A stretch of DNA of 64,000 bases from assembly GCF_018219155.1 (NCBI RefSeq), contig NZ_CP056123.1, positions 2,117,505 through 2,181,504 on the forward strand. Reading direction: 5' to 3'. The DNA is from Moritella sp. 24. Its GTDB lineage: Bacteria > Pseudomonadota > Gammaproteobacteria > Enterobacterales > Moritellaceae. The notes beneath the pieces are model-generated. The model saw only the letters and a program-made list of their open reading frames with translations. It ran no database searches and was not told where the DNA came from. The translations under genes were made by a program, and so were the position numbers. This document shows, in pieces, positions 3,141-49,699 of this stretch (its first letter is position 1; the number at the start of each line of letters is the position of its first letter).

Positions 3141-3806
3141 TTAAGGTCTGCGAATATAAATCACTGCACGGCGGTTTTCAGCTCTTGCTGCTGTTACATC
3201 TTGCGCTGTGCTTAATTCAACTTTAGGTCTTGAATCAGCATAGGCAACGGCTTTTAACTCTTGTTTCTTAACACCTTGCAATGCAAGACGTTTAACAATC
3301 GCTACAGCACGCGCACTTGATAACTCCCAGTTTGATGGATAGGTGAGGGTATGGATTGGAATATCATCCGTATGACCTTCTATTTCAACCATCTGGTTCT
3401 CAACATTAGAATTGTTGATGACTTCTGCTATCTGATCAATCACTGGTAACATCTGCGATTTTATTTGGGCATCACCAGAACCATAAAGTGCTTTATTAGC
3501 AAACTCAATTTTGATTCCTTTCTTATCAACACTGACGTCAGCTAATTCTGCCATGTCATTTTGTTCAAGCACACTCGTAATGTCTTTTTTTAATTCACTA
3601 AAAGGCATTGAGGTCTTTGTTGTGCTGGTAATCGATGTAATACCTTGTTCAAGCTCCTGTAAACGACCTTCGTTTACTTCCGATACACTAACCAGAATCA
3701 CAAAGAACGCTAGCAGTAATGTTATTGCATCACTGTATGTGACTAACCAACCATTATCGTCTTTATCGCTTAATGACGATGAAGCCGGAGGTCTTTTTAA
3801 TCTCAT
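3141..3806 (-). CDS. MotB/PomB-like stator subunit with OmpA domain
   Basis: A 221-residue B-type stator protein. The cytoplasmic N-terminus leads into one transmembrane helix (about residues 19-42) that carries WLVTYSDAITLLL. Asp26 sits where the ion-binding Asp of MotB (D32) and PomB (D24) sits. A linker of about 60 residues, with room for a plug, leads to a C-terminal OmpA/MotB peptidoglycan-binding domain with GHTDD (about 144-148) and NWELSSARA (about 159-167). It is shorter than flagellar MotB/PomB (about 300 residues). Its ATG overlaps the TGA of the MotA-like gene by 4 nt, so translation should be coupled. Last gene of the five-gene operon with a FliF-FliG fusion. TolR/ExbD-type or Zorya ZorB identity is less likely given the flagellar partners. 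Confidence 0.85.
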   Translation of the reverse strand: MRLKRPPASSSLSDKDDNGWLVTYSDAITLLLAFFVILVSVSEVNEGRLQELEQGITSITSTTKTSMPFSELKKDITSVLEQNDMAELADVSVDKKGIKIEFANKALYGSGDAQIKSQMLPVIDQIAEVINNSNVENQMVEIEGHTDDIPIHTLTYPSNWELSSARAVAIVKRLALQGVKKQELKAVAYADSRPKVELSTAQDVTAARAENRRAVIYIRRP

Positions 3807-4594
3807 TTACCTAACTCCGTCATTTTATGTTTAGGCGCGAGATAACAGTTTAATCTGTCCTGAATATACAGGTTATCTTTGTTTTCAGTGATTAACTGTA
3901 ATCCTGCTGTGATGATCTGACGTTCGAAGAAAATGCGGTGTTGTCTTCTTGCGATTCTAATTGCAGAGGGTTTGAAAAGTAGTTGGGCAAGTAATGTACC
4001 ATACAGTGTTGTAAGTAACGCGATTGCAAGGCCTTTACCTAGAGCAGCTAAATCACCTGTCATGTTATCTAGCATGATGATTAAACCAATTAGCGTACCG
4101 ACCATACCAAAACTAGGCGCGTAAGTCGCAAGGGTATTAATGACGTTAACGTGTTCACTTCTGCGTTGAAAATCACTTTCGTTTGTGTCATCAAGCATAC
4201 CTGCAAGATCTTTCGATTTATAACCTGTACCTAGTAACTCCATTGCGTTGATAATGAAGTCATCTTTTTTCTCTTTCTCAGTCAGGCTATTCTCTAACGC
4301 TGTAATACCTTGTTTCTTGTATATGTCATTCCATTCAATAATACGGTTAACAAGTTGCTTGAGTTGTTTATTCTGGTTCTTTTCGTCAAGCAAATTCACC
4401 ATCATTTCTGCAAATGCGGCCCAGATTAAACGAAATGAATAGCTAATTAATGTGGCACCAAAGCTACCACCAAGTACGATAACTAAACTAAACAAGCTAA
4501 CAAAAATAAGGTAGTTATCTGTGCTTTGTAAAATAGCGTAAGCAAACAGGCTGATTGCACCTAATATGCCAACGAAAGTACTAATTGAAATCAT
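3803..4594 (-). CDS. MotA/PomA-like stator subunit
   Basis: A 263-residue A-type stator protein with four membrane segments (about residues 5-22, 28-52, 150-175, 184-207) and a large cytoplasmic loop between the second and third. APSFGMVGTLIGL (Pro160) matches the third helix of MotA/PomA around MotA Pro173, and ALLTTLYG matches the fourth. In the loop, YKKQGITALE aligns by eye with PomA ARKGGFLALE, so basic residues (Lys93, Lys94) and Glu101 stand where PomA has torque residues R88, K89 and E96. It overlaps the MotB-like gene by 4 nt and starts 3 nt after the FliF-FliG fusion. The resemblance to PomA is stronger than to TolQ or ExbB. Confidence 0.88.
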   Translation of the reverse strand: MISISTFVGILGAISLFAYAILQSTDNYLIFVSLFSLVIVLGGSFGATLISYSFRLIWAAFAEMMVNLLDEKNQNKQLKQLVNRIIEWNDIYKKQGITALENSLTEKEKKDDFIINAMELLGTGYKSKDLAGMLDDTNESDFQRRSEHVNVINTLATYAPSFGMVGTLIGLIIMLDNMTGDLAALGKGLAIALLTTLYGTLLAQLLFKPSAIRIARRQHRIFFERQIITAGLQLITENKDNLYIQDRLNCYLAPKHKMTELGK

Positions 4595-4597
4595 CGG

Positions 4598-6421
4598 TTA
4601 TCCTTTTAAATCATTCATGCTGAAACGACCAGAATTAAGTAATTGTCTTATCGCAATCACAATTTCTTGTTGCGCTTTAGCTACTGTTTCTTGATCAGGT
4701 TCTTCAAGCTGTTTGATCTTAAATAGTAAGGCTGATTTTAATTTAACAGGCAGCTCAGTTAATACATGTTGAATTTGTTCTTCTTCTAAAGCGAATAGAC
4801 CAATTGCGACACTTTTACGTTCAATGTTGCGCAGTGCATCAGCGAGAACAAGTGTCGGAGTATTCAATAAGTCATCAAAGCAGTAGAATTGCTCACGTAT
4901 CTTCATGTATGTTTCTGGTGAACTTTCTTGAAGCTGTGTTAACAGTGTTTGCTGTTCGTTCACTGGTAGACGATCTAACATACCAAGCAGTAATTCAGTA
5001 CCATCTGCATTGATATGTTCGAAATCAGGTACCTGTTGTGATTTTTTAGCAAGACGTTGTGCAATTTCGTTAAACGTAGCAACAGGGAAATTATGGAACT
5101 GTCCTATTTCTACAGCAACAAGTGCGCGCTCAGTCGGACTTAGCTGCTTTAACACTGCTGTCGATTTTATCTCTTCAAGTTGCGTGAGAACTAATGCTTT
5201 AATTCTTGGTTGTTCTTCTTTAATTAACCAAGAAACCTGATTATCACTTAACTTTTGAAGGTAAGAGAATGGTTTGTGTGTAACTGATTGTGCATCATTT
5301 TCAATATGCGTAAGCAGTTGCAATAGATCATTGAGGCTCGTAATAAGCGCGGGATAATCTTTCTGTTCTTGTTGAAGATAATTAATGTATTGCGGTATTT
5401 CATGCACTAAGTTAGGGAAGATCGATGTGAATATAGAGCGACCCAGTGTTTGATAAGATGCCGCCAGTAGAGGCATGTTTTGCTCGTTCAATGCAATTTG
5501 AGCGACCGTTGATTGAATTTTTTCTGGCGATGCTAAGCTTAAACTAATAATACGTTGACGAAGCGCTTGTACATCTTGTTGCTGCTGCATGAGTAATGGT
5601 TCAGCAGTAGGTGGAGTGCTTTCGATTTCCGTATTTGGCTCTAATTTATTTTTATTGCGTAATAGTAGAATCAACAACATCAAAATTAAAGCCGCTAATA
5701 AAACCATTAACCAGTTTGCCCAATCCTGATACCAAGGAGTAACGGGTTGCTCTTCAAGTTCTTGAGCGATCGCTGCTGTTGGAAAATCAGTTGGTGTGAT
5801 AGTTAAAGTATCCCCTCTAAACGGGTTGTAGTTTAACTTTTCAGTCAATAAATTTCTCAAGAATACAACTTGTTCGTTATTAGCCGTATTTGTCACTAAT
5901 AACTTTGTGTGTAGCACTCTTAATTTTTTTTCTGAATCACCACTGTTTGCAAGTTGATTAGCTTGTGCCGCTTGGGTTTCTAATAATTCAGCTTGTTGAT
6001 TAATGGTTTGTTCCATCGCTGAAATTTGCGCTTGTGCTTGAGCTATTGCAGGATCTACAGTTTTTTCTTCTGACGATCCACGACTTGGCAGTGCAGGTAA
6101 ATCAAAATCATCCTCAGTATTTGAGCCCGAATTTGTAGGTGTTGGCCCATTTTGTGATGGGTTTACAGCTTGATTAGGTTTATAGCCTGATTGTTGTGGC
6201 TCGTTATAACCACTTGGTCCTTGGGCCAAAGGTGTCGTTAACACTTCAGCTCTAATTGAAAGTATAAAGCTATCATTCCCTAAGTAGGCAGCAATATCTC
6301 TATTTAGTCTTTCTTCTAACCCCTGGCTTAACTCGAGTGATTCAATTTCATTGGCGATTGCTTGTGGTGCAAGTACAAGTGATACAGCCAATAATGCGGA
6401 TTTTAAAATATTCATGTTCAT
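4598..6421 (-). CDS. FliF(C-terminal part)-FliG fusion, rotor of a motor-like complex
   Basis: A 607-residue protein that I align by eye to FliF followed by FliG. An N-terminal hydrophobic segment (1-24, cleavable-looking AIANE) precedes a short FliF-like helix/strand (30-62), a Pro/Gln/Asn-rich linker (64-120) and a coiled coil (125-160). Then come the FliF beta-collar end with YNPFRGDTLTI (198-208, compare FliF RGDTLNV), a transmembrane helix (236-255) and a FliF C-terminal helix (284-311). After that all three FliG parts follow: N (312-380), middle (384-460; KEEQPR in place of EHPQ) and C (475-605; REQFYCFDDLL resembles the FliG KMFVFEDLL region). In the torque helix the usual Asp pair appears replaced by FK (about 567-568). 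The FliF RBM1/RBM2 part is absent. Sits 3 nt from both neighbours in an operon with stators. Confidence 0.78.
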   Translation of the reverse strand: MNMNILKSALLAVSLVLAPQAIANEIESLELSQGLEERLNRDIAAYLGNDSFILSIRAEVLTTPLAQGPSGYNEPQQSGYKPNQAVNPSQNGPTPTNSGSNTEDDFDLPALPSRGSSEEKTVDPAIAQAQAQISAMEQTINQQAELLETQAAQANQLANSGDSEKKLRVLHTKLLVTNTANNEQVVFLRNLLTEKLNYNPFRGDTLTITPTDFPTAAIAQELEEQPVTPWYQDWANWLMVLLAALILMLLILLLRNKNKLEPNTEIESTPPTAEPLLMQQQQDVQALRQRIISLSLASPEKIQSTVAQIALNEQNMPLLAASYQTLGRSIFTSIFPNLVHEIPQYINYLQQEQKDYPALITSLNDLLQLLTHIENDAQSVTHKPFSYLQKLSDNQVSWLIKEEQPRIKALVLTQLEEIKSTAVLKQLSPTERALVAVEIGQFHNFPVATFNEIAQRLAKKSQQVPDFEHINADGTELLLGMLDRLPVNEQQTLLTQLQESSPETYMKIREQFYCFDDLLNTPTLVLADALRNIERKSVAIGLFALEEEQIQHVLTELPVKLKSALLFKIKQLEEPDQETVAKAQQEIVIAIRQLLNSGRFSMNDLKG

Positions 6422-6424
6422 CCT

Positions 6425-6988
6425 TTATTTAGTATCCAAGCGAGTTAATGCTTTCTGAACATCTTCGTATTCAGGATCAAGTTCTAAAGCTTGCTCCCAT
6501 GCGATTTTAGCCGCCGTATAGTCTTTCATTTTATAGTGCACGCTGCCTTTAAGAGCGTGAGCTTGTGCAAGACTAGGTGCCGCCTTAATTGCTTCTTCGA
6601 CTTCAGCTAATGCTTCTGGATAATATGTGTCCACTGCAAGCTGTTGAGCTTCAGATAATAAGCGAAGTGCTTTTCCCATGTCTTCAGGAGTTGGTTCTTC
6701 TTCATCTAATATATCTTCGAATAGGTCAAGATTATCTTGATTCGCTAACTGGTCTTCGGCATTAATTTCTTCATCTGTTTCCATTTCAAATATAATGTCG
6801 CTACCAAGCACATTGAAAGCGACTCTTGATTGATAATTCTGCCCTTGGTGCTCAAGAGTCAAGATACCTAATGGATTACCATCGGCATCTGATGCTGCGA
6901 CTTTAGGAGCGACCTGTTCAACGTTATTATTTTTAGTGCTACATGCAGTCAGCGTGATCAGCATGCACAGCGTAATTATTCTTTTCAT
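6425..6988 (-). CDS. Outer-membrane lipoprotein with TPR repeats
   Basis: A 187-residue protein with a lipoprotein signal: the lipobox LTAC puts the lipidated Cys at residue 16, and Ser at +2 predicts sorting to the outer membrane. A short strand-rich region (about 30-75) and an acidic linker (75-105) precede two tetratricopeptide-like helix pairs (about 108-185; AEVEEAIKAAPSLAQAHALKG and WEQALELDPEYEDV). It lies 11 nt after the outer-membrane protein gene and 3 nt before the FliF-FliG fusion. By context it could be an assembly or pilotin-like partner of the motor or its outer-membrane protein; that role is inference. Confidence 0.75.
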   Translation of the reverse strand: MKRIITLCMLITLTACSTKNNNVEQVAPKVAASDADGNPLGILTLEHQGQNYQSRVAFNVLGSDIIFEMETDEEINAEDQLANQDNLDLFEDILDEEEPTPEDMGKALRLLSEAQQLAVDTYYPEALAEVEEAIKAAPSLAQAHALKGSVHYKMKDYTAAKIAWEQALELDPEYEDVQKALTRLDTK

Positions 6989-6999
6989 ATTCCTAATCC

Positions 7000-8115
7000 T
7001 TAGAAGCGGTAGCCAAGTGTAATGTCGTAGCTTAAGCCACCAAATGTAACTGCGGGTGCATAGCCTGATTTCGAATCAATCTCTATATCATTTTCAGAAA
7101 TACTGATGATGCCCACTTCTAAGAAGCCATTATCAAGAAAGCTAATCTCTGTGCCTGCTCTAAATGCAACTGCGTGATAGTTATCAAATAACACTTGGCC
7201 AATACCGATGTAAGGTTTGAACTTAACTTTCTGGATCCAATCTGGTGCTAAGAAGAAAATACGACCTTCGATATTGACACCGGTTAGGCTAATCGTATCT
7301 GTTTTTTCAAGGTTTGTTACGACATCGAAGATAATCGCGTATTCAAGATTTGGTGTTAAGTCTGAAGACTGATAGTTACGTACACCAATTGTGGTGAATT
7401 TATCTACTTCTGTCATTGTGCCTGTATTTGTATTTAATCGTTTTGCTTCAAGTCCCCAGGCTCCTAAAGTCACCGCCCAGTTTGATTTTTCAAAGAACTC
7501 AATATCCGCTTCTTTTTCGACTGTTTCAGAGATGTTTTTAGTCCATATAACATCCATAGTCTTTGCATTAACAAGCTTTAATTGAACATCATAAACGTCG
7601 TCATGAACAGACGCGTCCCACATTAAGAAAGCGTTAGCGCGAATATCTTTAGCCATTGCTTGTAATTCTTTGTTTGTCTCGGCGCTATGTTTAACTCGCA
7701 CGCTGCCTTTTTTCACATTAACGTATGTTTTGGCACATTGAATGCAAGTTTTCACATTAATGTCATTATCGATAAGGCTGAGAGATAATTTGTTTTCGAT
7801 TAAACTTAATGTGGTTTTATCTAATTGGTGCTGTAATTTATTGCCGCTATGATATAAGGCAACATTTCTAATATTTTGTTCTGAAAGTTCCCATGGAAGC
7901 TCTCCCCAGATGTCTTTACGGTCAAGAAGATTTAAAAACACGAGGTATGATTTACTCGGTGTAATATTTGATGGAGCTAATGTGATTGCAGGTTGTTCTT
8001 CATTTATTGCATTTTCAGCTGAGTGACTTAACGGGATATAAGCGGTAAAAATTACAAAAAAAGAAGAGAGGTATAAAAATAATGATTTTTTTATACCAAA
8101 AAATGAGCGTGTCAT
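7000..8115 (-). CDS. Outer-membrane protein: CsgG/FlgO-like domain plus C-terminal beta-barrel
   Basis: A 371-residue exported protein with a signal peptide ending near residue 33. Residues 80-205 look like the CsgG/TolB-N fold found in FlgO, FlgT and LpoB: a helix-rich LSLIENKLSLSLI stretch, then YDVQLKLVNAKTMDVIW, plus a CIQC pair that could form a disulfide. Residues 210-371 alternate like beta-strands and end in YDITLGYRF, with the terminal Phe typical of BamA-inserted barrels. First gene of the motor operon. In Vibrio flagella FlgO, FlgP and FlgT form outer-membrane-linked rings; a comparable anchoring role here is inference. I do not recognise the full-length protein. Confidence 0.65.
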   Translation of the reverse strand: MTRSFFGIKKSLFLYLSSFFVIFTAYIPLSHSAENAINEEQPAITLAPSNITPSKSYLVFLNLLDRKDIWGELPWELSEQNIRNVALYHSGNKLQHQLDKTTLSLIENKLSLSLIDNDINVKTCIQCAKTYVNVKKGSVRVKHSAETNKELQAMAKDIRANAFLMWDASVHDDVYDVQLKLVNAKTMDVIWTKNISETVEKEADIEFFEKSNWAVTLGAWGLEAKRLNTNTGTMTEVDKFTTIGVRNYQSSDLTPNLEYAIIFDVVTNLEKTDTISLTGVNIEGRIFFLAPDWIQKVKFKPYIGIGQVLFDNYHAVAFRAGTEISFLDNGFLEVGIISISENDIEIDSKSGYAPAVTFGGLSYDITLGYRF

Positions 8116-8391: not shown

Positions 8392-9276
8392 ATGTCTGCC
8401 GTTGTAACCCATCAAGTGCACCCAACAAAGGTGCTATTCAGCCAAGTAATCACAGAGTCTTTAGCTCATATACAATGGCTCGAAAAAACAGATGTCAGTA
8501 CATACGTTATTGTTGATCAAACGCCATTTCATCCTGTTAGTCACATCTGGCCTGATCATCCTGCAGATAAAGGCTGCCTATTATTAAAAGACGAACAATA
8601 TGATGTATTAGACTGTTTAACTGGTGCATTTGACGTTGAGAATAACAAATTATATGTCGGAGCTGATATCCCCGTTAAACGTGGCGAAGCAGGTTGGCAT
8701 TTTGTTGTTGTGCATGAGTTAGCACTTGATACGGCATTAGATATTAATAATGAAGTTAAATTGACCGTTGATAAAAGCTACCAGACAGCACTAAGCCGTG
8801 GCCATAGTGCAGGGCATTTAGCTTCATTTGCTTTGAATAAAATACTGGAACAAGACTATTGGCGAAAGGATGCATCGCGAAAAGATGCATTAAATAACCG
8901 TGATTTCCATTCTTATGCTCAAACATTCAGCTTGGTTTCTGAAAACAAATCAACTGATAACTACCGTTTAGGCAAGACATTGAAAAAAAGAGGACTTAAT
9001 GTCGCTGATATGCTGAATGATTTGGATGATATTCAAAACAAAATAAATGATGTGCTTGAAAATTGGGTTGCGACTAAATCACCTGTAGTAATGAGGCGTG
9101 AGGGCGATTTGCTTACGGACTCGCGATTTTGGTGTTGTGATCTTGGCAACGGAGAAAACATTATTATGCCTTGCGGTGGATCGCATGTTCAAAGCTTGCT
9201 TGAATATAAAAGAATAACGGTCGAGTTAACGGTTAAATCGGAACAAGATTTAGAAATGATTACGACAGCTGATTAA
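8392..9276 (+). CDS. AlaX-like aminoacyl-tRNA editing hydrolase
   Basis: A 294-residue protein related to the free-standing editing domains of alanyl-/threonyl-tRNA synthetases. The two zinc-binding signatures are visible: RGHSAGH (136-142, the HxxxH pair) and CGGSHV (261-266, the CxxxH pair). Such proteins hydrolyse mischarged tRNAs, typically Ser-tRNA(Ala), in the cytoplasm. The N-terminal 100 residues resemble the AlaRS-type beta-barrel that accompanies the domain. The ORF starts at an ATG with AAAGGAA ahead. It is divergent from the motor operon and ends in its own terminator. The substrate is not determinable from sequence; a more general metal-dependent hydrolase role is possible. Confidence 0.75.
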   Translation: MSAVVTHQVHPTKVLFSQVITESLAHIQWLEKTDVSTYVIVDQTPFHPVSHIWPDHPADKGCLLLKDEQYDVLDCLTGAFDVENNKLYVGADIPVKRGEAGWHFVVVHELALDTALDINNEVKLTVDKSYQTALSRGHSAGHLASFALNKILEQDYWRKDASRKDALNNRDFHSYAQTFSLVSENKSTDNYRLGKTLKKRGLNVADMLNDLDDIQNKINDVLENWVATKSPVVMRREGDLLTDSRFWCCDLGNGENIIMPCGGSHVQSLLEYKRITVELTVKSEQDLEMITTAD

Positions 9277-39717: not shown

Positions 39718-42528
39718 CTACGACAGTAACGTTAAACCAGTTGGTAAACTGTCACCAAAAATACGCTTCATTACCGTTTCATCAGAAACCTGTACATCAC
39801 GTACTAATTCTAACCAAGACTCCGATAGTTTATTTTGCGTTAGTTTTTCTATCACCGCATCTCTGACTTTATCTTGAATATCGATTTCTCTGTCGCCAGT
39901 TTTTCTTGCGATCATCACTGCTGAGAAAGCTATATGCGGTTCTTTCTGCCAGTCGGCATCGATAATCGTATTTAGCCATGTCTCTGCAATATGGCGAGGA
40001 ACAACGTTATGTTGGCTACCATAAAAGGCAACACGAGAAGCGATACGCCCTAATGCCCACCAATGTAATTGCTGATTTTGTGGTTTTTTGAGTTTAGCGA
40101 GTAGATACTCACCAAACTCAACTTTTAGCGCCACTGGAATATGCTCTAATGAAGCTGCTAGTCGGATAATATCATCGTAGCTACGTTGTTTAGCTTGGTT
40201 GATTATTTTCGCGTGCTTATTGCTGTCTTCTACAAAATATACAGAGATCGTATCGTATATTTCAATCTGCTGTTGCTCATTTAAGCCACCTGCAATACGA
40301 CGCCATAAATTCCACCAATCACTCCAAGACTGTGTCGATTTATTGTATTGAATCGCTGATTTGAACGTTGGCCAGATCTGCTCAATACGCCAATCATCAG
40401 CAGGGTAGCCAAAGCCAGGACGAAGCAGGAAGCTGGTTAATTTAAGCCAATTACGTTCATGTTGCTCTGTTCGACGACGGTTTTTAGCAAACTGTAGGCA
40501 AGGTGCTGCAAGTTCACGTAGTAGGTCTGTATCCCACGTGTCGCGTTTACCTAGGCGTTTATCAAGATCGTTACGTAACGATTTGACTAATTTAGGATCA
40601 CTTTTCTTACTACTTGCACCGTATACAGCTTCAATCAATTTGATCGCATCAGGTAGGTTAGGGTGACGCTGTTTAATATCAGCGATATCCTGTGAATCAT
40701 TACCTGCGGACTTATTTGATAAACTCGGGCGAACAGAAAATTCAAGAGCCCAACGTTGCTTGCTGTTTGTTTCACTTACGCATTCAAGCTGTAAAGTACC
40801 TATGCTACTTAGCTTGCAAGATAGATAAACAGATTCAAAACGTTTGTGATCTTTGTGCTCTGGAATAGTAACAACAAAAGGAGGCAATGGTGTTTTACCT
40901 TTTAATTCAGTCTCAAATTCTTTTCCAACTATATCACCCGGCTTGAAATTACTTTCATGGCTTGTAGTGGCAAGATTAAAACGGATTGGCTCACCAATGG
41001 TTAATGAGAACAAACGGCTATCTAAATTAATGACTTTTTCATCTTCAGTACCTTTTGGAAGTAGGCAAATTGATTGTGTTTTACCTGAGCGGTCAGTAAT
41101 TTCAATAAAGTAATTACGTGGGCTACCACCGCCTATTTGTTTCTGTTTACCCATTTTAGCAAAGCCAAATTCAACGGCACCGTAAGCAACGGACAGATCT
41201 GGATTACCATTATGTAGCATTTGGATCTTTTGTTGTTTCCAGCTAGATAGTACTTTGTCTATTTGTAGCTTAACTTGTCGGCTATTAAAAATACCACCAT
41301 TAACAAGTACAGCTGCAGGTACAACGGCTGGATCATAGTCATCGCTTGCTGCTACGTCATAATATGTATGGATGAACTCGGCAATGTGTTTTGAAATAGC
41401 AGGATCTGATGTATAAGGTAAACCAAATTCAACCACCGCATTTTTTCGATGTGTCGGTAATTCATTAAATGAACTATTTGGCAAAAAGCCATTAAAGACC
41501 ATATCAACAACTTCATTTTTGGTCAGCTCACACTTTTTAGATTGTGCAATAAGCTTTGAACCACGGCCAAGTAAAGTAATAGAAGTGGTACTTGGTGGCT
41601 GCTCTGATAAAAAGAGTTCTTTTGCTTGGCGTGTCTGCTGAATTAATTGACCGAGAGCGGCTGACTGCAAGCGCTGATCTGGTGATATTCTTGATTCGAC
41701 AATATGTGCTAGAGCTAAATCTATATTATCGCCACCCAGCATTAAATGATCGCCAACTGCAACACGGTTTAAATTCAATTCACCGTGATCTAATGACATC
41801 TCAATTAAGCTAAGATCGGTTGTACCACCGCCTATATCACAAACAAGCATGGTTTTATCTTGTTCAATCAAATCTGTTTTAGCTTGTTTGTTACGGTGAT
41901 ACCAGTCATAACAAACAGCTTGTGGTTCTTCAAGTAGCGTTACGTTTGTTAAGCCAACAAGATCGGCTGCGGCAAGTGTTAATGCGCGAGCTGTATCATT
42001 GAAAGAAGCAGGGACAGTAATGGTAATGTTTTGATCTGCGAGCTGGTGATCTGGGTTGTGATAATTCCAAGCAGATTGGAAATGGGCAAGATAACTGGCG
42101 CTGGCAATAACAGGCGATACTTTTTCGATATTATCTTCAACAGCCCAAGGGAGAATAGCGGCTTGTGCATCGATACTTGGATGAGATAACCAGCTTTTAG
42201 CGCTTGATACTAAGCGGCCTTTGGTTTTTGTGCCTAAATCACGCGCCCATTGGCCCACGATAACATTGGTGATTTCACCGTTAAATTCATTCTTTTTCCA
42301 AGGTAAAATACAATCGCTTGGCGCAATTTCATTATCGTTGAAATGATAGCGGAATGAAGGGAGCAACGGTTTTCTTGCTACTTCGCCAGGACCAACCAAT
42401 TGGTCGACTAAGAATACAGAAGCACTGGCTTGATAATCATCGATATTTTTATAAGAAAGAACACTGTGTGTGGTGCCAAGATCGATGCCAATTACAAATT
42501 GCGCTGTTTTAGAAACAGGTGAGGGCAT
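39718..42528 (-). CDS. Large Hsp70-family protein with C-terminal extension
   Basis: A 936-residue DnaK relative. The ATPase domain (about 10-450) has IGIDLGTTHSVLSY, the phosphate-2 loop DIGGGTTDLSL (about 233) and the adenosine motif LVNGGIFNSRQ (about 413). A divergent substrate-domain-like region (about 480-610) leads to a helical extension (about 630-936) with many Trp/Arg residues, as in the DUF3731-type Hsp70 proteins. The start at 42528 has GGAG 6 nt upstream and is preferred to the ATG at 42540. It is the third gene of an operon with DUF2760 and a smaller Hsp70. No DnaJ or GrpE partner is nearby; client unknown. Confidence 0.85.
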   Translation of the reverse strand: MPSPVSKTAQFVIGIDLGTTHSVLSYKNIDDYQASASVFLVDQLVGPGEVARKPLLPSFRYHFNDNEIAPSDCILPWKKNEFNGEITNVIVGQWARDLGTKTKGRLVSSAKSWLSHPSIDAQAAILPWAVEDNIEKVSPVIASASYLAHFQSAWNYHNPDHQLADQNITITVPASFNDTARALTLAAADLVGLTNVTLLEEPQAVCYDWYHRNKQAKTDLIEQDKTMLVCDIGGGTTDLSLIEMSLDHGELNLNRVAVGDHLMLGGDNIDLALAHIVESRISPDQRLQSAALGQLIQQTRQAKELFLSEQPPSTTSITLLGRGSKLIAQSKKCELTKNEVVDMVFNGFLPNSSFNELPTHRKNAVVEFGLPYTSDPAISKHIAEFIHTYYDVAASDDYDPAVVPAAVLVNGGIFNSRQVKLQIDKVLSSWKQQKIQMLHNGNPDLSVAYGAVEFGFAKMGKQKQIGGGSPRNYFIEITDRSGKTQSICLLPKGTEDEKVINLDSRLFSLTIGEPIRFNLATTSHESNFKPGDIVGKEFETELKGKTPLPPFVVTIPEHKDHKRFESVYLSCKLSSIGTLQLECVSETNSKQRWALEFSVRPSLSNKSAGNDSQDIADIKQRHPNLPDAIKLIEAVYGASSKKSDPKLVKSLRNDLDKRLGKRDTWDTDLLRELAAPCLQFAKNRRRTEQHERNWLKLTSFLLRPGFGYPADDWRIEQIWPTFKSAIQYNKSTQSWSDWWNLWRRIAGGLNEQQQIEIYDTISVYFVEDSNKHAKIINQAKQRSYDDIIRLAASLEHIPVALKVEFGEYLLAKLKKPQNQQLHWWALGRIASRVAFYGSQHNVVPRHIAETWLNTIIDADWQKEPHIAFSAVMIARKTGDREIDIQDKVRDAVIEKLTQNKLSESWLELVRDVQVSDETVMKRIFGDSLPTGLTLLS

Positions 42529-42547
42529 TAAAAACTCCATATAATAA

Positions 42548-42572
42548 AACTCAGGGCAAAGTGCCCTGAGTT
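42548..42572 (-). terminator. Hairpin between the two Hsp70 genes
   Basis: Eleven-bp stem AACTCAGGGCA / TGCCCTGAGTT with a 3-nt loop, followed on the minus strand by TTTATTAT and then at once by the ribosome site of the downstream Hsp70 gene. Likely a partial terminator or mRNA-stability element that sets the ratio of the two proteins. Confidence 0.65.
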
Positions 42573-42636
42573 AAGTATACATTTAGCTATATAATCTGTA
42601 ATGCTAAATTATGTTTATTGATGTACTGTTTGCACC

Positions 42637-44451
42637 TTATTGGCGAACAGTAAGCTCAATTTCCCAAGCTTCATCACTATCGCTTGCGATAGCTTCAACT
42701 CTAAGCGTACCGACTTCAGTGACTGTGACTGAAAGTGACACTGGAACAACATCACCACTGTTACGTGAACTTGTTTCAAGTGATACTTCGATATCAGGTA
42801 ACTGGTCAAGTTCATCTGGTTGCCAGAAATCAAGGTGTGTACCAACCACATCGTCGCGGCGAACCGTTGAACCAAAGAACTTAAATTTAACCGGTTGACC
42901 AACAACTAAACCAAACTGATGCGTTGTTACATCTACATTTGAACCTTCTTCAAGGCCAAATGGTGCGATACATACCGCTTCAAGTGGTGCTTCAAATCCA
43001 GGGATTGCAGGCATTGAGCTTTCAACACCCACATAGTATGCACTTGCTAAACCGCCCTTAATACGAACGCCTTTACCTTGTTTCGCATAGCCGTGGTAAC
43101 ACGCGCCATTTGCAACAGCAAGGTCAAGATCAATACCCGTTAATAGCACTGCTTCTTCTTCAACATCAGCAGACACTAACCAGCTATTGATAATCCCCAT
43201 CAGCTTATCGCTAATCGCATTTGACTTAAATACGCCACCGTTAAATAGCACGGCAGTTGGCTTAATGAAGTCACCTGCGTCAGTTTCTAATGCGTCGTGT
43301 TGTTTATTTAAGAAGTGAGCAATGTGTTTCGTGATTGCTGCATCTTGTGCATATGGTAAACCGATTTGAGTCAGAGCAGTACGTGTACTCTGTTGTGGCA
43401 TTTCTGTCACAGCAGTTTCAGGGAAGAAACCATCGAGAATAGTTTGTTGTACTTCTTCACGTGTTAATTCAGTTTGCATCGTACCAGCAATGAGCTTAGA
43501 GCCACGGCTTGGGATAACGATTGGCATTGAATCAATGTCGTTATCTGATAACAACTGTTCTTTCGCATCACGACATGCATGTGTGATAGCTTGAATCTGC
43601 CAAGGCTGTAATTGTTTGCCTTCTTGCATCAATTTCATTTTAAGACGGTAAGCAAGGGCTAAATCCATGTTATCACCGCCAAGTAGGATATGCTCACCTA
43701 CTGCAACACGGGATAATGTTAAATTGCCTTCCGATTCTTCAACTGAAATTAATGATAAATCGGTTGTACCGCCACCGATATCGACAACTAGGATCGTATC
43801 GCCAACTTCAACCTGCTCACGCCAGTCGTCACCACATGCTTCTAACCAGCTGTATACAGCTGCTTGTGGTTCTTCCAGTAGATTTAAATGTTTAAGGTTT
43901 AAATCTTGTGCCGCTTGCGCTGTTAAGTTACGCGCCGCTGGATCAAATGATGCAGGAATTGTGATCGTAACATCTTGCTCTGAGATAGGTGCATCTGGGT
44001 GAGCATCATTCCAAGCTGCTGCTAAGTGATTTAGATATTGGCTTGTTGCAGTAACAGGTGAGATCTTTTCAATTTCATCAGGGCTTGAGAAAGGTAAGAT
44101 CGCATCGTGTGGACTTACTGTTGCGTGACTTAACCAGCTTTTTGCACTTGATACTAAACGTATCGGTGTTTTTAAACCAAGTTGACGTGCTACATCACCC
44201 ACAAGTTCAGTGTTTTCACCGTCCCAAGGTAATGGTGTTTGATCTTGGCTGATTTCGTCTTCATGTGCTTGATACACAAATGAAGGTAACTGGTATTTTT
44301 CAGTCACAGAACCCGGTGCAGATAATTGTGGAATTGCAAACAGCTGTTTTGCTACTTGGTCAGATTCATCTGTTAGGTCTATGTATGATAATACACAGTG
44401 TGTTGTCCCTAAATCGATACCGATACTGTATGTTGCGTTTACTTCACTCAT
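42637..44451 (-). CDS. Hsp70-family protein (short paralogue)
   Basis: A 604-residue DnaK relative. IGIDLGTTHCVLSY at the N-terminus, DIGGGTTDLSL (about 225) and LFNGGVFKSN (about 405) mark a complete ATPase domain; the C-terminal 130 residues form a divergent beta-type substrate region (EIELTVRQ end) with no helical lid. It lacks the 300-residue extension of its neighbour. Its ATG overlaps the DUF2760 stop (ATGA), so the two are translated together. YegD/HscC-like rather than DnaK. Confidence 0.85.
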   Translation of the reverse strand: MSEVNATYSIGIDLGTTHCVLSYIDLTDESDQVAKQLFAIPQLSAPGSVTEKYQLPSFVYQAHEDEISQDQTPLPWDGENTELVGDVARQLGLKTPIRLVSSAKSWLSHATVSPHDAILPFSSPDEIEKISPVTATSQYLNHLAAAWNDAHPDAPISEQDVTITIPASFDPAARNLTAQAAQDLNLKHLNLLEEPQAAVYSWLEACGDDWREQVEVGDTILVVDIGGGTTDLSLISVEESEGNLTLSRVAVGEHILLGGDNMDLALAYRLKMKLMQEGKQLQPWQIQAITHACRDAKEQLLSDNDIDSMPIVIPSRGSKLIAGTMQTELTREEVQQTILDGFFPETAVTEMPQQSTRTALTQIGLPYAQDAAITKHIAHFLNKQHDALETDAGDFIKPTAVLFNGGVFKSNAISDKLMGIINSWLVSADVEEEAVLLTGIDLDLAVANGACYHGYAKQGKGVRIKGGLASAYYVGVESSMPAIPGFEAPLEAVCIAPFGLEEGSNVDVTTHQFGLVVGQPVKFKFFGSTVRRDDVVGTHLDFWQPDELDQLPDIEVSLETSSRNSGDVVPVSLSVTVTEVGTLRVEAIASDSDEAWEIELTVRQ

Positions 44452-46987: not shown

Positions 46988-49699
46988 TTATTTAGCGGGG
47001 TTGTGAATTTTGCTGTTCCATTTTAACCAATCAGGATCCACTTCTTGTGCTAATTTGAATTGTGAGAATGGTGCAGCCAATTTACTGTTTTTATCTGGGG
47101 TTGGCGTTGCAAAGGCAATACCGCCCGCTAAGATCGTTTTTAACGACTCAGCTTTTAAGGTAGCACCAGTAAGACCAATATCTACATTAAAGCCTGATAC
47201 GGCCCAGAATTGGCTATCGTTATGAACCAGATGTCTATATTCAGGTTGGATATTAAGTGTGATTAATACCTTGTCCCCTGACTCTGCGAGTTCTGAGTGA
47301 GTGATTGAACCGACTTCTATCTGGCGGTAATAAACAGATGTACCCGCTGTTAATCCCATTAGTCGAGCACTAGACAGCGTAACAGACAAGCCAACTTCTT
47401 CAGCAGCAATGTCAGGGGCTGCATTGAGTACATTAAAGCGTTTCACTTTATTGCCTTCACCCTTGGTGACATTGATATATGCTCCAGAGAGTATTGTATC
47501 CGCATTTTTGATACCGTCTAAACCGACTTCTATACGTTCTAACCAGTATTGACTGCCCTGACGCGTAAAGTAATTTGCATAGTCGGTATCTAATTTAGCA
47601 GTGGCTTCAATAAACCCTTGGTCGACTTTTAATTTGATGTCACTGACTTCACCCACTTTTATACCTTTATGCTTTAGCTCTGTGCCGATATTAATATCTG
47701 AGCCAGAATCAAACGTTAAGGTAATTGCAGGTCGATTATCCGTTGCAGCTTCAAAACTACGGAAAAGCTTGTAATGACTGCGTTTTGATTTTGCTAAACT
47801 GACTTTATTGGCATTAACTGGTTTGATGTTATCAAAGTTAATGCCACCAGCAGCAATAGTAAGCAGTGACTCTGTTTGTACTTGTAGATTGCTGAGGCTA
47901 CCAGAGATCTCGATACCTGATACATCCCAAAATACGCTATTTTTGTTAATAAGGTGTGCGTATTGACTCAGAATGTCTAGTGTAATAATGACATGCTCAT
48001 TATCTGGCGCTAAGCGGAACTCTGCAACCGAGCCTACCACTAACTTACGGTAGTATACTGGCGCACCGTTAGAGATAACGTGATTCGGTTTACTGACGAG
48101 AGTAATAGACTTGTTTGCTTTAAAGGCATTGTTACCTAATTTAGCCAGTGCTAAAGAAGGGTAAAGTCGATATTGTTGATTTTTAGTTTTCGCTTTAAAC
48201 GCAGGGTTGTTAACAAGCTCGATACCACCACTGACTAACGCTGCGATAGGCGCTGACTTTATATTGACCCCCGAAATGCCTGCATTTACAGATACGCCGC
48301 TGATATTGATAAAGCGTGATGATGCAGTCAATAAGTGTGCATAGTCTTGATAAAGATTAACATTTAAATCGATTAAATTTGTTTTCGTGTTAAATACTAC
48401 GTGGCTAATATGACCAATCGGATAATTCTTGTAGTAGATCTTATTACCAACGGCAAGGCCATTAGCATCATTAGCTGAGATGGAAATTTGCTTACTCGGT
48501 ATGAGATCGTCAACGTTCGATACTAAATCAAACGTTGTTTTTAACTCTCCTTGCCCTGGGGTAAAAAGAATATAATTACCAGTAACAAGATTCGCCACAT
48601 TTTTACTTTCAGAAAGCGATAGTCGTGCTTTTTCAACCCAGAACTGGGCTCCATCACGCAAGAGCTCTTCAATTTCTGGGTCTACATCAGCGATAGCTGT
48701 CGCGGACTGTTCTGAACCAGGCGTTGTTGGCAATATTGATGGGATGATGACTTGCTTTATTTCACCGACTTTTTGTCCATCTAAATAGATATTGTTGCCA
48801 GCCTTGATATCGTTACTGTTGCTCAATTTAAATTCAACTTGTAACGCACGTTCTGCATCACTGATACTACTATATAGTGTATACAGTTGCTCATCTGATG
48901 CGGTTTTACCCTCTGCTGGAGAGTCAAATGCGATAGCACCACTAATAATGGCGGTTAAACTTTCAGTCTCAACCTTGATACCATCAAAACCAAACTCGGC
49001 ATTGATGCCACTTGCATTCCAGAAGCGTGAGGTATCTTTGACGAGATAGCCATATTGTTTCTTGATTACGGCTTCGATCATTATTTGATCTGTCACTTTG
49101 TCGAGTGTGAAATTATGTACTTGGCCAACAGGGATCTTCTTATAAAACACTTCAGAACCAGGTCGTACAGATGCCAGCTTATCTGCGGTTAAATGGACAA
49201 TGAGTCCTTCATCTGGTGGATTGTTCGGGGCATTTTGAACTGCGGTGAATTCGACACTGAACTCTCCGTTACCAGGCAATAAATCAATGTAGTTACCAGT
49301 GACAAGCGCATCTAAACCTGAAATACCGGCAATTGAGGCTTTAGGTGCAACTAACCAAAACTGTGTATTACTACGCAGTACTTGTTCTGCTTTGTTATCT
49401 ATTTCAGCTGTAATGTATACACCTTTTAGATCATCATCTAAGGCGATGTTTTTCACTTTACCGATAATTAAACCTTGGTATTTGACCAGTGTTTTACCTG
49501 CGACAATACCATTTGCGTTGGAGAAGTGTACGCGAATCTCAATGCCTGATTGGGCAATGCTTTGATACATTAAGTAGATCCCAAGAACTATCGCCACAAT
49601 GGGTAGCAACCAGATAGGGGACATTACATTCGGTTTGTGTAATACCGGTTTTGGCGCATTACAGTTTTCCGGCATCTCTGGCTCGTTATTTTCTTTCAT
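46988..49699 (-). CDS. letB: LetB/YebT-type seven-MCE-domain lipid transport tube
   Basis: A 903-residue protein with an N-terminal transmembrane helix (about 27-48) and seven consecutive MCE domains starting near residues 52, 168, 290, 405, 525, 650 and 770, each with a VYYK-type strand and (V/I)G(Q/E/H/S) turn. Seven is the number in E. coli LetB (YebT), which stacks as a hexameric tunnel across the periplasm for lipid movement; PqiB has three. The start overlaps the end of the upstream letA half by 14 nt, consistent with one complex. Confidence 0.92.
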   Translation of the reverse strand: MKENNEPEMPENCNAPKPVLHKPNVMSPIWLLPIVAIVLGIYLMYQSIAQSGIEIRVHFSNANGIVAGKTLVKYQGLIIGKVKNIALDDDLKGVYITAEIDNKAEQVLRSNTQFWLVAPKASIAGISGLDALVTGNYIDLLPGNGEFSVEFTAVQNAPNNPPDEGLIVHLTADKLASVRPGSEVFYKKIPVGQVHNFTLDKVTDQIMIEAVIKKQYGYLVKDTSRFWNASGINAEFGFDGIKVETESLTAIISGAIAFDSPAEGKTASDEQLYTLYSSISDAERALQVEFKLSNSNDIKAGNNIYLDGQKVGEIKQVIIPSILPTTPGSEQSATAIADVDPEIEELLRDGAQFWVEKARLSLSESKNVANLVTGNYILFTPGQGELKTTFDLVSNVDDLIPSKQISISANDANGLAVGNKIYYKNYPIGHISHVVFNTKTNLIDLNVNLYQDYAHLLTASSRFINISGVSVNAGISGVNIKSAPIAALVSGGIELVNNPAFKAKTKNQQYRLYPSLALAKLGNNAFKANKSITLVSKPNHVISNGAPVYYRKLVVGSVAEFRLAPDNEHVIITLDILSQYAHLINKNSVFWDVSGIEISGSLSNLQVQTESLLTIAAGGINFDNIKPVNANKVSLAKSKRSHYKLFRSFEAATDNRPAITLTFDSGSDINIGTELKHKGIKVGEVSDIKLKVDQGFIEATAKLDTDYANYFTRQGSQYWLERIEVGLDGIKNADTILSGAYINVTKGEGNKVKRFNVLNAAPDIAAEEVGLSVTLSSARLMGLTAGTSVYYRQIEVGSITHSELAESGDKVLITLNIQPEYRHLVHNDSQFWAVSGFNVDIGLTGATLKAESLKTILAGGIAFATPTPDKNSKLAAPFSQFKLAQEVDPDWLKWNSKIHNPAK

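Follow-up and report, generated by a model that had tools for sequence, protein, structure and literature searches.

FliG, the rotor protein, is usually regarded as a part of the flagellum only. In a survey of 205 genomes, stators associated with flagella fall into a single clade, and the survey, as far as it was covered here, describes no non-flagellar system bearing a FliG (PMC12505986). Engineered fusions of FliF to FliG assemble rings, and a Salmonella fusion is termed functional (PMC11481574). We analyzed a stretch of 64,000 nucleotides from Moritella sp. 24 (contig NZ_CP056123.1, positions 2,117,505 to 2,181,504; hereafter the window), which carries at 3141-8115, on the minus strand, five genes for a predicted outer-membrane protein (OMP), a lipoprotein, a trimmed FliF fused to FliG, and a stator pair of the MotA/MotB type. 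The architecture of this set, that is its domain composition and the co-occurrence of its genes, is well supported. We consider it moderately probable that the five proteins form a stand-alone, ion-driven rotary motor of the flagellar type that is coupled to an outer-membrane complex and acts on the envelope.

The third gene of the operon (4598-6421; all coordinates below are on the minus strand of the window unless a locus is named) encodes a 607-aa protein with a signal-like N-terminal sequence. Pfam identifies FliG_M at residues 394-464 (5030-5242; 9.3e-14) and FliG_C at residues 496-601 (4619-4936; 8.7e-16), both above the cut-off; a match to FliG_N (1e-4) is under the cut-off and is placed on the M/C region. 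Nothing in the first 390 residues exceeds the Pfam cut-off, and the FliF part is missed by Pfam. The first 262 residues nevertheless align by hhalign with positions 202-481 of 567 in a profile of 12 flagellar FliF proteins (probability 98.1%, E 1.4e-13), the best E among 50 column shuffles being 0.062. The alignment to FliG reaches 99.6% (E 7.6e-25), and a search of the PDB with a profile built from 11 homologs recovers FliG at 3.1e-33 and FliF (6scn) at 1.6e-12. In a Foldseek search with the predicted structure, 13 chains match at E<=0.001, every one of them FliG, and FliF RBM3 rings are matched weakly (E 0.04-0.22, probability 0.90-1.00). A relation of the 607-residue protein to FliF or FliG is therefore found by Pfam, PDB profile search, hhalign and Foldseek.

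The RBM3 (S-ring) domain of the fusion occupies residues 25-214 (5780-6349), as placed by hhalign and by the succession of helices and strands in the predicted structure, and has a long variable loop mid-way. It is followed by a transmembrane helix equivalent to the second one of FliF (TM2; residues 231-257, 5651-5731; profile comparison and model) and by a region at the position of FliG_N in which the model has helices (residues 274-384, 5270-5602). The FliF-FliG fusion proposed in an earlier note, made from the letters of the window, thus holds for the kinship with both proteins by sequence and profile, and with FliG also by structure; of FliF, only RBM3 and TM2 are present. Nothing in the 607-aa protein corresponds to RBM1 or RBM2, and it is not a full-length FliF with RBM1, RBM2, RBM3 and two transmembrane helices. 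In flagella, RBM2 houses the export gate. Both the trimming of RBM1/RBM2 and the fusion are the same in all aligned members. The window protein has EQPR where flagellar FliG has EHPQ, the motif that binds FliM, and EHPQ occurs in none of the 21 readable members of the fusion family.

The two genes that follow, with products of 263 aa (Gene 4, 3803-4594) and 221 aa (Gene 5, 3141-3806), encode the stator subunits. Pfam assigns MotA_ExbB (2.2e-19) to Gene 4 and MotB_plug (8.2e-14) and OmpA (3.8e-14) to Gene 5. Among NCBIfam families, Gene 4 matches MotP (2.2e-39) and PomA (3.2e-39) far ahead of ExbB (0.007) and TolQ (0.014), its scores being under the cut-off of every listed family, and the PDB profile search returns MotA/PomA down to 1e-37. 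It has the torque residues K93 and E101, and shares T167, T195/T196 and P209 with PomA. Gene 5 has a channel aspartate, Asp26, and an OmpA-like domain; the channel Asp and the motif W-x-x-T-Y-x-D are present in 19/19 operon MotBs. NCBIfam, PDB profiles and Pfam agree in making this a flagellar-type pair, as the PomA-like and PomB-like labels of the earlier note implied. By its sequence features, a PomA/MotP-like A subunit and a B subunit with channel Asp and OmpA-like domain, the pair resembles the FIT clade of flagellar-type stators, a likeness judged by features rather than by placement in the published tree (PMC12505986). In our own tree of 34 MotA rows, the 19 operon MotAs form one clade (100/100) apart from 15 other MotA/PomA proteins; the program warned of long branches, and the tree leaves the position of the clade relative to the root unplaced.

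The torque contacts described for E. coli in the stator survey are R90-D288/D289 and E98-R281 (PMC12505986). Torque residues were mapped onto the operon proteins through Salmonella FliG and Vibrio PomA (R88/E96). The two Vibrio residues were taken by us as equivalents of the E. coli contact residues. In operon MotAs the R88 equivalent is basic in 19/19 and the E96 equivalent acidic in 18/19. The FliG residue equivalent to R281 (K560 in the window protein, Salmonella numbering for R281) is basic in all 17 members whose C-terminus is readable and whose operon includes a stator, and is T, Q and Q in the three members, from two lineages, without an adjoining stator. The R281 and R88/E96 equivalents are kept, the rest of the patch is weaker and EHPQ is gone; the pattern fits a working stator-rotor contact that may have diverged from the flagellar one, perhaps avoiding cross-talk.

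The outer-membrane and lipoprotein assignments of the earlier note were borne out as predictions. Gene 1 (7000-8115, 371 aa) combines a LpoB/PelC/GNA1162-like domain at about residues 58-204 with a small OmpA-like barrel at about residues 209-371. Its AlphaFold model has a mean predicted local distance difference test score (pLDDT) of 72.5, with most barrel blocks at 84-95. By VIA-align the soluble domain resembles LpoB (Z 11.3, root-mean-square deviation 3.2 over 127 residues), GNA1162 (Z 9.5) and PelC (Z 8.7); Foldseek also matches Gene 1 to LpoB (1.4e-5), with TolB among the matches. The barrel scores up to Z 16.3 against small barrels, the top ones being PagL, OprF, NspA and OmpA, which we take to be 8-stranded. 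Three homologs scanned, the window protein included, gave no Pfam match above the cut-off. A CxxC pair lies within the LpoB-like domain of the window protein and is found in 19/19 Gene 1 homologs, perhaps as a disulfide or metal site. Gene 2 (6425-6988, 187 aa) has a tetratricopeptide repeat (TPR) at its C-terminus (TPR_2, 3.6e-7 in Pfam) and a presumed lipobox LTAC, assigned by motif; the lipobox pattern is seen in 18/20 homologs, L087 and L130 being those in which it is not.

A further protein accompanies the set in the order of genome G445, where a Sel1-SPOR protein heads the operon in 5/5 loci; in the one such protein scanned by Pfam, Sel1 (1.8e-41) and SPOR (1.6e-4) are both above the cut-off. 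These proteins are about 496-526 aa long (L083:4972-6552, L089:1569-3140 and L127-L129), and one is also found at L085:6331-7827. SPOR domains bind septal peptidoglycan, and a link of this partner to the septum or to denuded peptidoglycan is possible. Together, the LpoB-like domain and the SPOR partner would point to work on peptidoglycan or the envelope. Such work could also be done without full rotation, by an energised, Tol-Pal-like machine in which an ion-conducting stator moves or strains a fixed assembly of FliFG, lipoprotein and OMP and thereby pulls or remodels the envelope. The partial loss of the FliG charge patch, the LpoB-like fold of the OMP domain with TolB among its Foldseek matches, and the Sel1-SPOR partner of one lineage are all compatible with such a machine. 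We nonetheless regard it as unlikely, given a stator of PomA/MotP type (~3e-39/2e-39) rather than TolQ/ExbB (0.014/0.007) and a FliG rotor whose R281 and R88/E96 residues are kept; the rotor ring would then be superfluous.

For a rotary motor, the parts suggest the following arrangement. FliF-FliG subunits would assemble into a ring in the inner membrane, with a periplasmic S-ring of RBM3 domains and a cytoplasmic ring of FliG M and C domains. Around it, MotA/MotB stators would be anchored to peptidoglycan via the OmpA-like domain of MotB, and ion flow through them would push on FliG_C as in the flagellum and spin the FliFG ring. FliM and FliN would not be required, and the ring, lacking RBM1 and RBM2, would house no export gate. 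The TPR lipoprotein and the barrel protein with its LpoB-like domain may form an outer-membrane complex above the ring that takes or resists the torque. If the torque of the ring reaches this complex, the output would be mechanical and exerted on the outer membrane and peptidoglycan, and no filament would be exported or rotated.

The set is carried by marine and other bacteria: searches turned up the fused protein in 22 different genomes of Gammaproteobacteria and SAR324/delta. The hosts are three Moritella, a Thalassolituus metagenome-assembled genome (MAG) and two Oleispira MAGs, seven more genomes of the order of an Oleispira MAG, five in the order of an Ectothiorhodospiraceae MAG (this MAG included), two other gammaproteobacterial MAGs and two SAR324/delta MAGs. 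The survey of the five-gene neighbourhood across genomes found all five genes adjacent in 19 of the 22, counting L129, in which FliFG is cut by a contig end; since the same five genes stand together in 19 genomes, their grouping is more than chance. The remaining loci are L085 (no stator and no OMP adjoining), L087 (no stator adjoining) and L088 (the contig begins inside FliFG). Two gene orders occur, OMP-Lip-FliFG-MotA-MotB and SelSPOR-MotA-MotB-OMP-Lip-FliFG. The distribution is rare and patchy, as the low frequencies across the genus, order, class and phylum samples indicate: the fusion is present in 3/11 genomes of the genus, 3/394 of its own order (E<=1e-20) and 4/369 of the class, and in 5/13 of the order of G445 and 8/293 of the order of G1088. 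In a phylum sample of 398 genomes, 208 had matches, and among the matches listed the fusion occurs only in the window genome, the other rows having the length of flagellar FliG. A pattern-limited scan of genome contigs gave 10 loci.

A search of the class with the N-terminal profile of the fusion matched 18/369 genomes: 4 fused proteins, 1 FimV-like protein (in G505, set aside as not a fusion on reading its sequence) and 13 open frames of 533-612 aa. The match of these 13 is confined to about positions 176-265, the RBM3b/TM2 part, and 12/13 show a long frame with an RGD motif. The search lends independent support to the relation of the N-terminal part to FliF. Carriage of the operon as phage or plasmid cargo was set aside: there was no match in viral contigs with three alignments or in plasmids, although the viral scans, built on short patterns, exclude little.

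Within the window, the five minus-strand open reading frames (ORFs) of the earlier note were confirmed, with coordinates, strand and intergenic gaps of 11, 3, 3 and -4 nt all reproduced. Chance or misread ORFs are ruled out by the 19 complete copies and by the ratio of nonsynonymous to synonymous substitution rates (dN/dS). A scan for promoters and terminators gave no excess over shuffled sequence. Between the window and its Moritella relatives dN/dS is 0.03-0.15 (four genes against two relatives, the OMP against one), and a decayed relic is therefore disfavoured; the two relatives, which have diverged little from each other, give 0.07-0.34 for four genes. The five proteins co-diverge (r 0.92-0.98 over 17 loci), and shared descent alone gives part of this correlation.

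These values bear on the idea that the operon is what is left of a second flagellar system. The small number of parts and the rare distribution might suggest as much, as might the shortened FliFG of L133 (8145-9821), which ends early at its C-terminus and leaves a 309-nt gap to MotA; the near-identical L132 and L134 are full-length, and a frameshift or stop codon in the L133 assembly probably explains the shortening. We nevertheless hold decay to be extremely improbable in view of the low dN/dS of the window pairs, the co-divergence, the same trimming and fusion in the aligned members, and the recurrence in 19 genomes of the same five genes, two of them non-flagellar. A remnant of a flagellar cluster in particular is ruled out by dN/dS, by distance and by the neighbours. 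The operon lies at ~2.12 Mb on contig 1 and the flagellar FliG, with the flagellar FliF adjoining, at 3.474 Mb, ~1.35 Mb apart; FliM is at 3.468 Mb and FlhA at 3.461 Mb. Pfam found no flagellar family among 25 neighbouring window ORFs, a subset of those in the window, and no rod, hook, filament or type III export gene among these and the five operon proteins. The operon thus does not sit beside a full flagellar cluster.

We sought FliM in all 22 hosts and FlhA in 10, and found them in 19 and 7. Neither was found in the hosts of L083 (G1100, 67% complete), L084 (G413, 93%, 810 contigs) and L085 (G490, 98%). In G413 the operon MotB is the sole MotB detected; in G490 no MotB was detected. As FliM and FlhA were not found in these three hosts, the set apparently also occurs in cells that have no flagellum, and its independence from the flagellum is probable. 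The stand-alone character claimed by the earlier note is accordingly supported by the genomes in which FliM and FlhA were not found; it does not extend to a host free of flagellar genes in Moritella, which has its own FliF, FliG, FliM and FlhA. The set could instead serve the flagellum of its cell, as a decoy rotor, a brake, a stator reservoir or an extra ring that tunes the motor. The presence of FliM in most hosts would agree with this, and one Gene 1 homolog weakly resembles FlgT_M (0.0087, under the cut-off), FlgT being a part of the Vibrio H-ring; the window protein has no FlgT match. An accessory role appears quite improbable to us: the fusion occurs in MAGs of 93% (G413) and 98% (G490) completeness without detected FliM or FlhA, the operon stators form a separate clade, EHPQ is lost, the flagellar FliG is 1.35 Mb away, and in the genus the operon is present in 3/11 species and flagellar FliG in 11/11.

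Several points weigh against a stand-alone rotary motor. With FliM in 19/22 hosts, the set probably coexists with a flagellum in most cells. The hosts lacking FliM comprise one genome that is 67% complete, one without a detected MotB and one MAG in 810 contigs, and the case for a stator-bearing set without a flagellum rests mainly on the last, G413. The SAR324/delta members and L085 have no adjacent stator. The torque patch of FliG is partly kept: the K264 equivalent is conserved in 0/17 members, D288 is acidic in 3/17, D289 acidic in 11/17 and R297 basic in 2/17, and the window fusion has F/K at D288/D289. Compared by hhalign on their own, residues 274-384 have no significant match to FliG_N (E 0.13), and the model of the fusion is of low overall confidence (pLDDT 65; predicted template modelling score, pTM, 0.28). 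The synonymous divergence (dS) of the window pairs is 0.95-1.6, near saturation. Finally, the ring, its rotation and any phenotype are postulated, and that the lipoprotein and OMP touch the ring is a guess based on the genes being neighbours.

Neighbouring genes differ between lineages. In the Oleispira lineage an alkaline phosphatase gene lies 3' of MotB on the same strand, after a gap of 117-309 nt, in 7/10 loci (L082:13471-15372, L086:13490-15382, L130:12103-15469, L131:3720-5585, L132:4224-6077, L133:2686-6049 and L134:2186-5549); it is not there in L081, L135 and L136. The phosphatase is of the PhoA type in L130, L133 and L134 and of the unrelated PhoX type in L082, L086, L131 and L132, as typed by Pfam for L130, L131 and L132 and by BLAST for the other four. 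Several of these proteins have lipoprotein-like starts and collagen-like stretches. Two unrelated phosphatases at one position may hint at a role at the cell surface or one related to phosphate. The rotor might then act through an outer-membrane complex to move, expose or feed a surface protein encoded nearby or elsewhere, in gliding, adhesion or nutrient scavenging. Such a surface motor would account for a motor and an outer-membrane barrel sharing an operon and for the phosphatases downstream in that lineage, and MotAB relatives power gliding in other bacteria, AglRS being named in the survey (PMC12505986). Even so, we find it quite improbable: no phosphatase-type neighbour is seen in the Moritella or G445 lineage loci, the phosphatases may simply occupy the same stretch of the genome within one lineage, the model shows a small barrel, and inspection of the loci, where most neighbours were outside the Pfam scan, revealed no adhesin.

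In one SAR324/delta genome, the fusion is preceded by two proteins of lipoprotein type, 451 and 417 aa long (L087:1596-4207). The 451-aa protein aligns twice with the N-terminus of the fusion family, in registers that overlap (E 2.6e-8 and 6.6e-7, against a best E of 0.024 among 50 letter shuffles), and to judge from this match apparently contains two RBM3-like repeats. The 417-aa protein has TPR repeats and is homologous to the gammaproteobacterial lipoprotein (E 4.8e-14). Because one lipoprotein is RBM3-like and the other homologous to the operon lipoprotein, there are hints that RBM3-type rings may be stacked from the inner to the outer membrane. By hhalign the gammaproteobacterial lipoprotein family itself has no match to flagellar FliF (E 0.57) or to the RBM3 part of the fusion (E 0.075). 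A FliG-less protein of 430 aa, like the RBM3 and transmembrane part of the fusion, precedes the fusion at L085:2660-3952 and may be a second ring; MotB, FliM and FlhA were not detected in that genome. Compared with flagellar FliF, the 451-aa (E 0.035), 417-aa (E 0.32) and 430-aa (E 0.028) proteins are not significant. SAR324/delta genomes also have two adjacent MotB-like genes (L138:6861-9071 and L137:6806-8139), preceded in L138 by a single MotA; this cluster, at another place in the genome, appears to be an ordinary flagellar stator.

In the three operon-bearing Moritella, a 294-aa protein without a Pfam match (window 8392-9276) adjoins the operon; the other flank differs among Moritella, and the fusion is ~72-76 kb from patatin in two. 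The pykA/patatin/VF530 genes were found in 6/6 Moritella genomes examined for the empty site, and the far side of that site was not located in the Moritella species without the operon. At L149, in the Moritella genome G010, the sequence matching the patatin-like gene has an in-frame TAA. Elsewhere in the window, two adjacent Hsp70-like proteins, one with DUF3731, are encoded at 39718-44451 on the minus strand, a few kb from a protein with MlaD repeats (46988-49699).

As to origin, the set may descend from the flagellum. It is quite unlikely, in our estimation, that it represents a second, independent use of the FliF/FliG/MotAB core as an envelope machine spanning the periplasm, possibly from a module predating the export apparatus or existing alongside it. 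This reading draws on the separateness of the MotA clade, without root placement, and on the recurrence of RBM3-like sequence in a SAR324/delta lipoprotein; a flagellum that was trimmed at a later stage would agree with both just as well. If such a module were the source, the set would be a living flagellar motor without its secretion half. A stand-alone motor, if confirmed, would mean that the rotor and stator core of the flagellum can work without an export system, would offer a minimal five-protein system for studies of torque generation, and bears on how the motor and secretion halves of the flagellum joined. A stator of the type found in the flagellar clade (PMC12505986) here appears to serve something else, and the set could reveal a new way for Gram-negative bacteria to work mechanically on the outer membrane and peptidoglycan.

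In the open-access literature, neither a natural FliF-FliG fusion nor an operon of this kind was found described, most subscription papers being outside this scope; the earlier note, likewise, knew of no named system with this make-up. The set shares with the flagellar motor the RBM3 and TM2 of FliF, FliG_M, FliG_C, MotA/MotB with the channel Asp, the Thr/Pro positions of PomA and the R88/E96 and R281 equivalents. Unlike that motor, the operon has no RBM1/RBM2, FliM/FliN, export gate, rod, hook or filament; its FliF and FliG are fused, it brings its own lipoprotein and OMP, EHPQ is lost, its stators form their own clade, and the set occurs where FliM and FlhA were not found. The engineered or mutant FliF-FliG fusions of Salmonella and Vibrio (PDB 8z4d; PMC11481574) are likewise one chain and form MS-rings, but they are laboratory constructs or mutants, the Vibrio one with whole FliF and FliG, whereas the operon fusion is natural, trimmed and kept across lineages. 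Tol-Pal and ExbBD-TonB have in common with the set a motor of the MotA/TolQ/ExbB superfamily, outer-membrane partners and a LpoB/TolB-like fold; the operon differs in its flagellar-type stator and FliG rotor, and has no TolA/TonB-like rod among its five genes. Zorya (ZorAB), GldLM and AglRQS are 5:2 motors of the MotAB type outside the flagellum, and none of them is known to have a FliF/FliG rotor. The operon MotB matches ZorB (1.3e-18), but the best match of the operon MotA to ZorA is 0.002, and at 263 aa it contrasts with ZorA and its long cytoplasmic tail; with no ZorC/D/E match for the five operon proteins, Zorya defence was ruled out. LpoB, PelC and GNA1162 share the fold of the soluble OMP domain (Z 11.3, 8.7 and 9.5), which in the operon is joined to a small barrel and carries the conserved CxxC. 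By the features tested, the five-gene set is not a flagellum, though it probably works like the core of a flagellar motor; as a machine it would be new, built from known kinds of parts.

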